DNA of 64,000 nt from Marinobacter sp. es.048. GTDB lineage: Bacteria > Pseudomonadota > Gammaproteobacteria > Pseudomonadales > Oleiphilaceae. The notes below the pieces were generated by a model. The model searched no databases. It worked only from the letters and a program-made list of their open reading frames with translations, and had not been told where the DNA came from. The translations under genes were made by a program, and so were the position numbers. Position 1 is the stretch's first letter. Every line of letters begins with the position of its first letter. Where the stretch lies: assembly GCF_900188435.1 (NCBI RefSeq), contig NZ_FYFA01000001.1, positions 2,322,309 to 2,386,308 on the forward strand, given 5' to 3'. Positions 3,577 through 34,469 of this stretch are shown in pieces.

Positions 3577-4320
3577 CTAGGCAAGTTTCTTCTTTCTGGA
3601 AAACAAAATTCCAGTCAAACCAAGAAACAGAAGGGCAAGAGATCCTGGCTCTGGTACAGATTTTACGTCTGAATAGTTAATGGCATTATTCACCATGCGA
3701 CTTGAAACACCTTGAGATATTGGATCTAAGCTAAGCGCTAATGCTGTGAGCTCTGCGTTTTTAAGATCATTTATTGAGTTAGCAACACTATCAAGGTATA
3801 ACGAGCTAAATGTAAGGAGTGAAACTGTCTCTCCCGCATCAACAGTTAGATCATAATACAGGTATGTAAAGGCACTGCCGAATGGTAAAAATTCCGAGTT
3901 ATCAAGAGTCCATTGGTTTTTCCCAAAGGTAAAAGCCACTGCTGGGTCTCTGCCTAATTGGGTTTCATTCGTCGTGTAAGTGTAATCTGTGGTGCTACTA
4001 ACATAAGGCTGATCATCAGACCCCAGATTAGTAAAATATCGAATAGTCTGATTAATCACACTGCCTGTGTTATTTGTGAATGAATCATATACGCCATAAG
4101 AAAAAATATCTTCTAGTGTGAAAACTTCGCGAGAAACAGATAATGAACCATAATTTTCTAATCTCTGAAATCCGTCATAGGCATCTCTGAGGCCATCGTT
4201 CACAGCATAAAAGCCGTTATAGAATGGTTGTGTGTTGTTGACAATTTCAGAAAGCGGTATTGGTGCCGAAATCGCCGAGCTAGATGCAAAAAGTAAGGCT
4301 GCAAAGAATAGCTTTTTCAT
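3577..4320 (-). CDS. PEP-CTERM sorting-domain protein (islet cargo)
   Basis: The 247-residue secreted protein has an N-terminal signal peptide (MKKLFFAALLFASSSAISA) and a C-terminal sorting tripartite tail: VPEPGSLALL, a hydrophobic helix and the basic end SRKKKLA. Exosortases recognise such tails, remove them and release or anchor the protein at the envelope or in the matrix. The middle is rich in Asn, Thr, Tyr and Ser and I recognise no domain. Base composition is clearly more A/T-rich than the flanking chromosome, which supports acquisition with the islet. A GG-N10-GC promoter-like element lies about 35 bases upstream. Confidence 0.9.
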   Translation of the reverse strand: MKKLFFAALLFASSSAISAPIPLSEIVNNTQPFYNGFYAVNDGLRDAYDGFQRLENYGSLSVSREVFTLEDIFSYGVYDSFTNNTGSVINQTIRYFTNLGSDDQPYVSSTTDYTYTTNETQLGRDPAVAFTFGKNQWTLDNSEFLPFGSAFTYLYYDLTVDAGETVSLLTFSSLYLDSVANSINDLKNAELTALALSLDPISQGVSSRMVNNAINYSDVKSVPEPGSLALLFLGLTGILFSRKKKLA

Positions 4321-4354
4321 TATTTTCTCCGTCTAATAAACGAAAAAAATAGAT

Positions 4355-4371
4355 CAGCAAAATACATGCCG
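4355..4371 (-). promoter_or_regulatory. Sigma-54-type -24/-12 promoter of the islet PEP-CTERM gene
   Basis: The minus strand reads CGGCATGTATTTTGCTG, with GG and GC exactly ten bases apart as RpoN requires. It lies 35 bases upstream of the start codon. Similar elements precede the other three PEP-CTERM genes. Confidence 0.6.
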
Positions 4372-4487
4372 CGAATGTAAAACTCTCTGTTCTCTGGTGT
4401 TTTAGTAAAGTATGACGGCAGGATTAACCTTGTAGGTGTAAGCTATTTCGACAAACCAGCTCTTGGGCACATTGAGATATATGTGAG

Positions 4488-4543
4488 TGACCCTACCCCG
4501 GATTTTTCCAACTCTGGGTGGACCTAATTCGGGGTCAGGGTCA
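4488..4543. mobile_element. 56-bp relic of the IS407-group element found at 56.8 and 59.5 kb
   Basis: The first 12 bases, TGACCCTACCCC, equal the left terminus of the full element (56799). They are joined directly to the last ~44 bases of its right terminus (GGATTTTTCC...GGGGTCAGGGTCA). Everything internal is missing, leaving a non-coding unit flanked by both terminal inverted repeats. I see no target duplication. Confidence 0.8.
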
Positions 4544-4843
4544 AGTACCGGACATTACTAGGAGCAGTTGGATTAAAGACTGGGGCAGGTCACATTCTCG
4601 ATACCACCCTCTGAAACATTTGCGCCTAGGGTCGGATCACTACAGTAATGCTTCAGTGCGTGCTGGGGCGTCTTCCCGATTAGGGTGCAAAGAGGCGTGT
4701 TTTAGCGCCAGAGATTGCTACTTGCATACAGGCTGATTGGTCTTTTGAAGACGCGATTTGAGATGAAATGAAACACTGTATAAGAGAAGGATTTTGCGAA
4801 AACTTTGAGAAGGGCTGTGCAGAATCCACGTAACTTATTGAAA
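4544..4843. other. Right end of the tRNA islet, no gene seen
   Basis: No supported coding region, RNA or repeat is visible in these 300 bases between the IS relic and the tRNA-proximal att copy. The only open frame of note (4518-4736) starts inside the IS relic. Confidence 0.4.
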
Positions 4844-4890
4844 AGTGGTAGGACCACCCAGATTCGAACTGGGGACCTCTACCATGTCAA
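4844..4890. repeat. att-like 47-bp direct repeat inside tRNA-Val (right copy)
   Basis: This is the tRNA-proximal copy of the repeat at 2923-2969. It ends inside the anticodon loop (differing base at 4891 versus 2970). Together the two copies bound an insert of 1,921 bp. Confidence 0.88.
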
Positions 4891-33524: not shown

Positions 33525-33547
33525 ACCCGATACGCAATATTATAAAA

Positions 33548-33577
33548 AAACCCCAGGGAGCATCATTCCCCGGGGTT
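33548..33577. terminator. Bidirectional terminator between prpD and a PEP-CTERM gene
   Basis: AAACCCC...GGGG and CCCC...GGGGTTT arms pair around a CATCATT loop, between convergent genes. Confidence 0.85.
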
Positions 33578-33612
33578 TCCTTAAAAAACTAGAGTCTGCT
33601 AAATAATTAGAC

Positions 33613-34392
33613 TCAGGCTTTCCTGCTACGCCCAATAGCCAAGCCCAGTAAACCCAGGCCTAGTAAGGCAAGTGTGCCTGGTTCCGGGACCCTGGCGAGG
33701 CTTACATTATCGATTCCCCAGCCATCGGCATTGCCTTCGCCGTTATCGAACAGCAAGTTGACACCAGTAAAGGCTACATCAGAAAACAAAGTAATGTAGG
33801 CGATGTTGCCGTTCGGCTGTCTGCCGTCGCCGGTGGCAGGACCTTTAAATGTTAGCGTCGAAGAGTCTCCATTGCTAAACAGAAACTCCAGCGTGGCTCC
33901 TTGATCGTTCGCATCGGAGAGAAAGAACCCAAGCGCATTGTAGTTACTGTCAATTATGTCCCAGGTCACCTGGTCAGCGTCGTTGCTATCAAGCCACTGG
34001 GAATCATAGGCCATGTTGCGGCCGAATTCGCCAGTAGTATCGTCTTCGATCATGAGCAGATCATTGCGAATGTTACCGTTGCTGGCTGTATTCGGCGCTG
34101 TCATGGTGAAGGTACCAACACTGGTCTCGAATGCTGATCCACCGACGACCCATGTGGCTTGATCACCGGTTGCACCGGAAGCCTCGTAGGTTTCGTTGGT
34201 AATCGTGTAACTGTTAATCGGGTCATCAAAAGTTTCAGTGATGCCGTTGTAAGTAGAATCGCTAAAGGCTGCGGCTGCCGCATTGGCATCATCTGCACCA
34301 TAAGCAGCTTCAAACTTGATAACACCGGCGCTTGCTGTGCCAACCATTCCCGACAATGCCAGACCAATCAATGTCTTCGAGAATAACTTCAT
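33613..34392 (-). CDS. PEP-CTERM sorting-domain protein next to the EPS locus
   Basis: The start is placed at the ATG at 34392 (MKLFSKTLIGLALSG) with AAAAGGACGG upstream; the frame to 34437 lacks such a site. The 259-residue product has a signal peptide (ending TASA), an Asp/Asn/Thr-rich beta-sandwich-like body with a late WGIDNVSLARV segment typical of choice-of-anchor/PEP-CTERM proteins, and the tail VPEPGTLALLGLGLLGLA with basic end GRSRKA. It is divergent from the exopolysaccharide operon and probably travels to the matrix with that polymer. Confidence 0.92.
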   Translation of the reverse strand: MKLFSKTLIGLALSGMVGTASAGVIKFEAAYGADDANAAAAAFSDSTYNGITETFDDPINSYTITNETYEASGATGDQATWVVGGSAFETSVGTFTMTAPNTASNGNIRNDLLMIEDDTTGEFGRNMAYDSQWLDSNDADQVTWDIIDSNYNALGFFLSDANDQGATLEFLFSNGDSSTLTFKGPATGDGRQPNGNIAYITLFSDVAFTGVNLLFDNGEGNADGWGIDNVSLARVPEPGTLALLGLGLLGLAIGRSRKA

Positions 34393-34452
34393 AATATTCC
34401 GTCCTTTTAAAATTCCCAATTGAATCGGTAGATTCAAGCGTGAGTTGGGATT

Positions 34453-34469
34453 AAGCCAGTATCACGCCA
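34453..34469 (-). promoter_or_regulatory. Sigma-54-type promoter of the PEP-CTERM gene at 33.6 kb
   Basis: The minus strand reads TGGCGTGATACTGGCTT with GG and GC ten bases apart, 61 bases upstream of the start codon. Confidence 0.6.

Follow-up and report, generated by a model that had tools for sequence, protein, structure and literature searches.

Promoters of genes for PEP-CTERM surface proteins likely form a natural helical-phase series, in which an upstream enhancer motif and a -24/-12 element are separated by about 5, 6, 7, or 8 helix turns (once 4) and hardly ever by lengths in between; in one family, a second enhancer is located ∼168 bp further upstream, also in phase. The case studied here is the final 64 kb of the first of two contigs of the 4.06 Mb genome of Marinobacter sp. 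es.048 (this whole stretch is the window), which has four PEP-CTERM genes, A to D. We hold with high confidence that the -24/-12 elements upstream of these four genes are the promoter halves of PEP-CTERM box promoters as described by Haft et al. (2006; PMC1569441), each paired with a dyad predicted to be recognized by the regulator PrsR. The regulon itself is known biology, established in the PEP-CTERM field. The helical quantization of the spacers is new as far as the literature was searched and extends a known principle to another case; no statement on helical phasing of PEP-CTERM enhancers was found in the open-access papers searched.

A Two-Part Promoter Module Precedes the PEP-CTERM Genes

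An earlier reading, made from the letters of the window (the sequence-only reading), had assigned sigma-54-type elements to four PEP-CTERM genes, and their positions, strands, and spacing all proved correct: four 17-mers with GG-N10-GC spacing are present in the window where claimed. Counted from the GC, the start codons of genes A, B, C, and D follow after 36, 59, 72, and 62 nt, respectively (starts at ATG 4320, 27389, 28161, and ATG 34392; the listed open reading frame [ORF] of gene D begins at TTG 34437, and its start was set at ATG 34392). Each of the four proteins has a C-terminal PEP-CTERM domain over the curated cut-off. Across the genome, seven genes match PF07589 over the cut-off, A to D in the window and E, F, and G elsewhere (stretches L035, L036, and L033, respectively).

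Missed in the earlier reading, an upstream 16-mer resembling GTCGAAWWNNNTTACA (motif 1) precedes each -24/-12 element (motif 2), with a gap of 63–65 bp in the window. The composite module is present upstream of all seven PEP-CTERM genes found in the genome; from the end of motif 1 to the -24 element, the distance is 65 bp for A, D, and G, 63 for B, 64 for C, 75 for E, and 51 for F. Without mismatch, GTCGAAWWNNNTTACA has three sites in 4.06 Mb, upstream of A, B, and C, and the reversed pattern has none. Allowing one mismatch raises the count to 12, namely the sites of A, B, C, D, and F plus seven others, versus five for the reversed pattern. Motif 1 of gene D has one mismatch and those of E and G have two each. 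The seven remaining one-mismatch sites in the genome have no well-scoring motif 2 as partner, the best reaching 14.4 bits. Motif 1 of Haft et al. (2006) ends in TTTACA; here, A and C have CTTACA at the 3' end and G has TAAACA. A second TTTACA upstream of gene D was rejected as motif 1 by matrix scoring.

Specificity of the Module

Matches to a -24/-12 element could be due to chance, given how short GG-N10-GC is and how long intergenic regions are. The bare pattern is indeed common: GG-N9-[GT]GC occurs ≤150 nt upstream of 104 of 298 background ORFs (predicted ORFs of ≥150 aa in 400 kb sampled from the same genome), and the more specified pattern TGGYRYRNNNNNNGCWT has 68 matches genome-wide versus 67 for its reversed version. 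A scan with the bare sigma-54 consensus was rejected as evidence, as it did not outperform its reversed control, and GG-N10-GC alone would not have sufficed as evidence for a regulon. With a matrix trained on relatives, however, the elements of genes A to D score 16.9, 17.6, 20.9, and 17.3 bits, respectively, versus a maximum of 13.9 among the 298 background ORFs. The sequence-only reading implied matches above the frequency at random genes; this is not the case for the bare pattern but does hold for the matrix scores of the four elements, which top all 298. What upholds the finding is that each -24/-12 element belongs to a pair: the second motif is coupled to it at a near-fixed distance, and the pair recurs in 106 of 109 relatives' genes. 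Chance is an extremely improbable explanation, refuted by this coupling for A to D in the window; the -24/-12 sites of E, F, and G are individually weak.

The matrices were seeded with 79 pattern matches in other named genomes, after exclusion of one Marinobacter match, and iterated on 109 upstream regions of relatives' PEP-CTERM genes (30 loci, among the best matches listed, and 79 stretches). In this same training set, 106 of 109 upstream regions clear a 1% dinucleotide-shuffle threshold. Among the three that fail, the start in L241 is misplaced and the module is present at 35.7 bits, L249 is probably a wrong ORF, and L315 seems to be without a module. When matrices were frozen and applied to hold-out promoters, all 37 readable ones scored >20; the 38th is truncated by a contig end.

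The scan of the strain's own genome covered 528.5 kb on both strands, comprising the window, the 400-kb sample, and stretches L042–L045, picked because they contain genes E to G, the beginning of contig 2, and the prs genes (∼13.5 kb is double-counted through an overlap of contig ends). The seven best independent composite sites are those of the seven PEP-CTERM genes (43.1 to 26.8 bits) and the next best scores 18.5. The sequence-only reading had put forward a genome scan with an RpoN matrix as a check; in the DNA scanned here, the composite score ranks seven of seven PEP-CTERM genes on top. Two motifs on the right strand at allowed spacers make a sharp rule, one that places the seven known genes above all other independent sites scanned.

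Several observations weigh against this reading. The -24/-12 sites of E, F, and G are weaker (11.1, 13.6, and 11.5 bits), and 3, 2, and 3 of the 298 background ORFs, respectively, reach these scores. The training and hold-out promoters are in part orthologous to one another and to some genes of the window. Motif 1 on its own is only moderately specific, with 84 sites without mismatch in 55 of 117 genomes versus 43 for the reversed pattern. In 80 loci from named genomes, an automatic test finds a PEP tail downstream in 47; inspection adds more, and others have none. Those without a tail include small genes at three loci of Geobacteraceae, while L122 and L151 have sigma-54 activator genes; a contig end truncates some loci.

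In L122 (Ectothiorhodospira) and L151 (Thauera), the gene that follows the module codes for a sigma-54 activator and not for a PEP-CTERM protein; this arrangement could form an activator cascade. In L123, L166, and L168 (Geobacteraceae), the spacer is 59 bp, off the main classes described below, and the module is located before a gene for a protein of 76–88 aa.

Spacer Classes Are about One Helix Turn Apart

Spacers between motifs fall into discrete classes. In the 106 promoters of relatives, they are 50–54 (25 promoters), 62–65 (54), 71–77 (20), and 83–86 bp (6), with a single case of 43 bp; none is 55–61, 66–70, or 78–82 bp. The class means of 51.6, 64.0, 74.4, and 85.0 bp, when fitted as 5 to 8 turns, yield 11.06 bp per turn, and a scan of periods gives 11.45 as the best for all 106 spacers. 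Hold-out spacers are inside the same classes in 37 of 37 promoters, while the classes span 22 of 44 values. No period was detected in distances from motif to start codon (R of 0.12 and 0.15) nor in spacers from shuffled DNA (R of 0.13). The sequence pattern suggests that the two motifs are held about a whole number of helix turns apart.

Quantized spacing could also be inherited from a few ancestral promoters and be silent on mechanism. Many of the relatives' genes are orthologs with a common spacer, and one ortholog pair has spacers of 65 and 71 bp, a half-turn step of 6 bp that counts against phasing. The 80 named-genome loci (80 of at least 120 matched stretches, with gaps of 48–78 only) have spacers of 49–53 (15 loci), 58–65 (55), and 69–79 bp (10), and the spacing rule appears looser across phyla because the middle group is broader and the best period is 12.1. 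Nevertheless, lengths of 54–57 and 66–68 are empty in these loci too. Quantization persists when each of 50 protein clusters contributes one spacer (best period 11.3, R of 0.774; the largest of 2000 uniform nulls is 0.488). Moreover, other ortholog clusters have members that differ by about one turn (62–64 and 74; 72–73 and 83–86; 50–51 and 62–65), and a distal copy of motif 1 also shifts by about one turn. Silent inheritance is thus a very unlikely account of the classes, and helical phasing is the reading we prefer.

The distal copy is a feature of the gene C family, where it was found (>11 bits) in 14 of 15 orthologous promoters. Its offset from the primary copy is 157 bp in one promoter, 167–170 in 11, and 179–180 in two, values that are ∼one turn apart. 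The ortholog in L302 is without a distal copy and that in L339 has an additional copy at 137. Across 113 promoters (106 from relatives and the seven of this genome), 35 extra copies of motif 1 scoring >13 bits are present in 27 promoters, many of them from the gene C family, versus 1.1 in shuffles. The spacers are 64.5% A+T compared with 51.0% upstream. An IHF-like site (≤1 mismatch to the consensus) is present in 36 of the 113 spacers versus 15.1 ± 3.7 in shuffles, a hint of a bend aiding the loop.

If the phasing is true, torsional stiffness of the short PrsR loop would follow, and true enhancers could be told from false ones in any genome by the spacing rule.

Regulators and Proposed Mechanism

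The sequence-only reading had called for a search for prsK, prsR, and xrtA. PrsK and PrsR are both encoded over the model cut-offs, and prsT, prsR, and prsK are adjacent, flanked on one side by gene E, divergent from prsK, and on the other by an exosortase gene ∼250 bp from prsT (table 1). A point against is that the exosortase scores slightly below the XrtA cut-off (196.8 versus 208), though above that of the general exosortase model. RpoN is encoded in the genome as well (TIGR02395, 512 bits; cut-off 277.35). The proposal of one RpoN-dependent regulon over scattered PEP-CTERM genes, separate from the EPS operon, gains support from the seven of seven modules, the adjacent PrsR, PrsK, and PrsT, the presence of RpoN, and the absence of a module at the other promoters tested (see below).

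We infer that, in Marinobacter sp. es.048, PrsR would bind motif 1, transcription would depend on RpoN, the intervening DNA would loop, and expression of the genes would be coordinated. In the proposed mechanism, each promoter combines a -24/-12 site for sigma-54 RNA polymerase with a 16–17-bp imperfect dyad that would bind the NtrC-type PrsR and is located upstream at a nearly constant count of helix turns. PrsK would sense a signal and phosphorylate PrsR, which would oligomerize on motif 1 and contact the sigma-54 holoenzyme on the same helix face. This contact would span a short AT-rich loop, some 5 to 8 turns long and, in some promoters, carrying an IHF-like bend. Hydrolysis of ATP by PrsR would lead to promoter opening. 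The set of surface proteins would be turned on jointly, while the exopolysaccharide (EPS) operon, the exosortase gene, and the prs genes would be driven otherwise.

The module could be real and yet be read, at least in some genomes, by an NtrC-type regulator other than PrsR. Across 117 genomes (thresholds of E ≤ 1e-140 for PrsR and E ≤ 1e-4 for PEP-CTERM), 82 have both PrsR and PEP-CTERM matches, 6 PEP-CTERM only, 3 PrsR only, and 26 neither. The six (G004, G033, G036, G041, G043, and G090) have PEP-CTERM genes and no PrsR over the cut-off, and five promoters from G004, G036 (two), G041, and G033, all in the training set, keep the module at 23–41 bits; these count against PrsR as the only reader, and it is therefore perhaps not the sole one. 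In addition, ten further frames in the genome of strain es.048 match the PrsR model at 259–358 bits and are other sigma-54 activators. Concerning the six genomes, that of G033 is only 62% complete, that of G004 is one contig, and G036 has a PrsR-like frame without a receiver domain (G036:C1:3159324-3160160, in L364; 423 bits over positions 165–444). On the other side, 82 of 88 genomes with PEP-CTERM matches encode PrsR, versus 3 of the 29 genomes lacking such matches, DVUA0057 of Desulfovibrio vulgaris enriched its five predicted PEP-CTERM targets in vitro (in passages of PMC3333781), and regulation of a PEP-CTERM gene by PrsK-PrsR is stated for Zoogloea (in passages of PMC9012009). The alternative is very unlikely; PrsR is the best candidate for reading the module, though perhaps not the sole one.

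Promoters outside the Regulon

Module sequences were absent from the 350 nt upstream of the EPS operon, ORF 19612, prpB, prpD, the acyltransferase gene, xrtA, prsK, prsR, and prsT, with a best composite score of 6.5 bits. This agrees with the sequence-only reading, in which the start of the EPS operon at 34785 was without an element, and fits its suggestion that protein and polymer are under separate control. The cell probably controls surface proteins and polymer by separate switches, as judged from the lack of a module at the EPS, xrtA, and prs promoters tested. A sigma-70-like pair (9/12) is located at 34686-34713 before the EPS operon; two such pairs occur on both strands versus 1.0 ± 1.0 expected.

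The same reading had proposed a regulon joining genes next to a tRNA, in the methylcitrate region, and at the EPS locus. This stands for the PEP-CTERM genes and not for the prp promoters tested, where a module is missing; a link to a propionate regulon was rejected on the same ground. On these sequences, the regulon does not seem to include propionate metabolism, with the prp genes that surround B and C apparently being bystanders. The findings suggest one switch, apart from the polymer, for surface-protein genes at scattered sites: methylcitrate genes enclose two of them, a tRNA neighbors another, and the fourth is at the EPS locus. Before prpB (20009-20358), there is a lone -24/-12-like site of 9.7 bits with no motif 1; its score exceeds the 95% mark of background ORFs (7.5) but not the 99% mark (10.5).

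Table 1. Positions of PEP-CTERM genes, promoter motifs, and associated genes. Coordinates refer to the window, except those beginning with L042, which is contig 2 from 22000. Motif 1 is the predicted PrsR enhancer and motif 2 the sigma-54 -24/-12 element.
Feature	Coordinates	Strand	Scores and remarks
PEP-CTERM gene A (247 aa), downstream of tRNA-Val	3577..4320	-	TIGR02595 27.5 bits, cut-off 16; PF07589 over cut-off
Motif 2, gene A, CGGCATGTATTTTGCTG	4355..4371	-	16.9 bits; 0/298 background ORFs as high
Motif 1, gene A, GTCGAAATAGCTTACA	4437..4452	-	22.4 bits; 65 bp to -24 element
tRNA-Val near gene A	4846-4922		
prpF	25417-26592		
PEP-CTERM gene B (233 aa), after prpF	26688..27389	-	TIGR02595 24.1 bits; PF07589 38.4 bits
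Motif 2, gene B, TGGCACATTTAATGCTT	27447..27463	-	17.6 bits
Motif 1, gene B, GTCGAATTCTTTTACA	27527..27542	-	21.3 bits; 63 bp to -24 element
Distal second motif-1 copy, gene C, GTCAGTAAAGTTTACG	27827..27842	+	16.9 bits; 167 bp upstream of primary copy
Motif 1, gene C, GTCGAATATCCTTACA	27994..28009	+	22.2 bits; 64 bp to -24 element
Motif 2, gene C, TGGTATGGGTCATGCTT	28074..28090	+	20.9 bits
PEP-CTERM gene C, THxN family (280 aa)	28161..29003	+	NF038125 285.5 bits, cut-off 85
Exosortase-system-associated acyltransferase	29076..29891	-	TIGR03694 244 bits, cut-off 111.95; upstream without module
PEP-CTERM gene D	33613..34392	-	TIGR02595 22.9 bits; PF07589 34.8 bits
Motif 2, gene D, TGGCGTGATACTGGCTT	34453..34469	-	17.3 bits
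Motif 1, gene D, GTCGATATTTTTTACA	34535..34550	-	21.2 bits; 65 bp to -24 element
EPS operon first gene, XrtA-system glycosyltransferase EpsB_2	34785..36197	+	TIGR03013 573.5 bits; without module
Exosortase gene	L042:1829-3442		TIGR02602 141.6, cut-off 105.55; TIGR03109 (XrtA) 196.8, cut-off 208
PrsT	L042:3691-6390	-	TIGR02917 441 bits, cut-off 312.2
PrsR	L042:6442-7815	-	TIGR02915 681 bits, cut-off 502.6
PrsK	L042:7918-10053	-	TIGR02916 679 bits, cut-off 300

Genomic Context

Gene A adjoins a tRNA-Val gene, and a tRNA is present in 5 of 56 scanned PEP-CTERM loci of relatives (of 109). Upstream of gene F, positions ∼725–755 of L036 look like the 3' end of a tRNA with CCA; ARAGORN found no whole tRNA there. 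PEP-CTERM genes may travel to tRNA sites.

The end of the window (49252-64000) is ∼99.9% identical, with no mismatches and a few gaps, to the start of contig 2 (C2:1-13512, L045). This part of the window has an insertion sequence (IS) of the IS3 type at 56795-58033 and an identical copy at 59543-60781; the place of the first one is empty in contig 2. The identity of the contig ends reflects either one replicon with IS polymorphism or a real duplication. An XrtA-associated O-ligase-like gene (55587-56801; best model TIGR03097, below cut-off) ends within the IS3 copy that is absent from contig 2, and the insertion may therefore have altered the end of this gene.

Comparison with Known Systems

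In Haft et al. (2006), the PEP-CTERM box comprises motif 1, of 17 nt ending in TTTACA, and a sigma-54 motif 2, with a spacer of 62.8 nt on average (standard deviation 10.6, range 32–92) and a mean of 71 nt to the start. They reported the box for 99 of 167 proteobacterial PEP-CTERM genes; from it, PrsK, PrsR, and PrsT were inferred and named. The module described here is the same in both motifs, their order, spacer range, distance to the start, PEP-CTERM targets, and PrsK/PrsR/PrsT partners: motif 2 has GG-N10-GC at seven of seven genes, the spacers of 51–75 are within 32–92, and all three Prs proteins are encoded. It differs in that all seven genes of one genome have it, versus 99 of 167 proteobacterial genes. 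The passages searched mention a repeated motif 1; helical quantization and a phased distal copy were not found in them.

Experimental work on other species offers partial parallels. The pepA promoter of Aquincola tertiaricarbonis (PMC9850573) has a -24 TGGCAC and a -12 CTGCTT, a start mapped by primer extension, RpoN1 dependence, and a predicted upstream enhancer. It resembles the promoters here in combining a -24/-12 element with a predicted enhancer, but is a single gene studied experimentally with the enhancer undissected. DVUA0057, for which the five predicted PEP-CTERM targets were enriched in DNA-affinity-purified chip (DAP-chip) assays, is a response regulator predicted for PEP-CTERM genes, as PrsR is here; no binding motif is validated for it in that paper (PMC3333781). 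For Zoogloea (PMC9012009), PEP-CTERM transcription is stated to need RpoN and PrsK-PrsR, and in prsK and prsR mutants, EPS synthesis is unaffected and EPS is released. As context, in electrode-attached cells of Marinobacter atlanticus (PMC8233155), two of the eight PEP-CTERM genes are up whatever the potential and four are up only at anodic potentials.

Closest to the phasing are sigma-54 promoters of Vibrio qrr genes and synthetic NtrC enhancers (PMC4740811), where 61 natural qrr genes served to test whether gains or losses of 10–11 bp are tolerated. Their architecture is tied to the helical repeat, like the spacers of PEP-CTERM promoters; that study differs in its activators and genes and in having repressor sites inside the loop. 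For the PEP-CTERM box, the discrete classes replace the published mean and standard deviation, and the enhancer-loop mechanism becomes testable.

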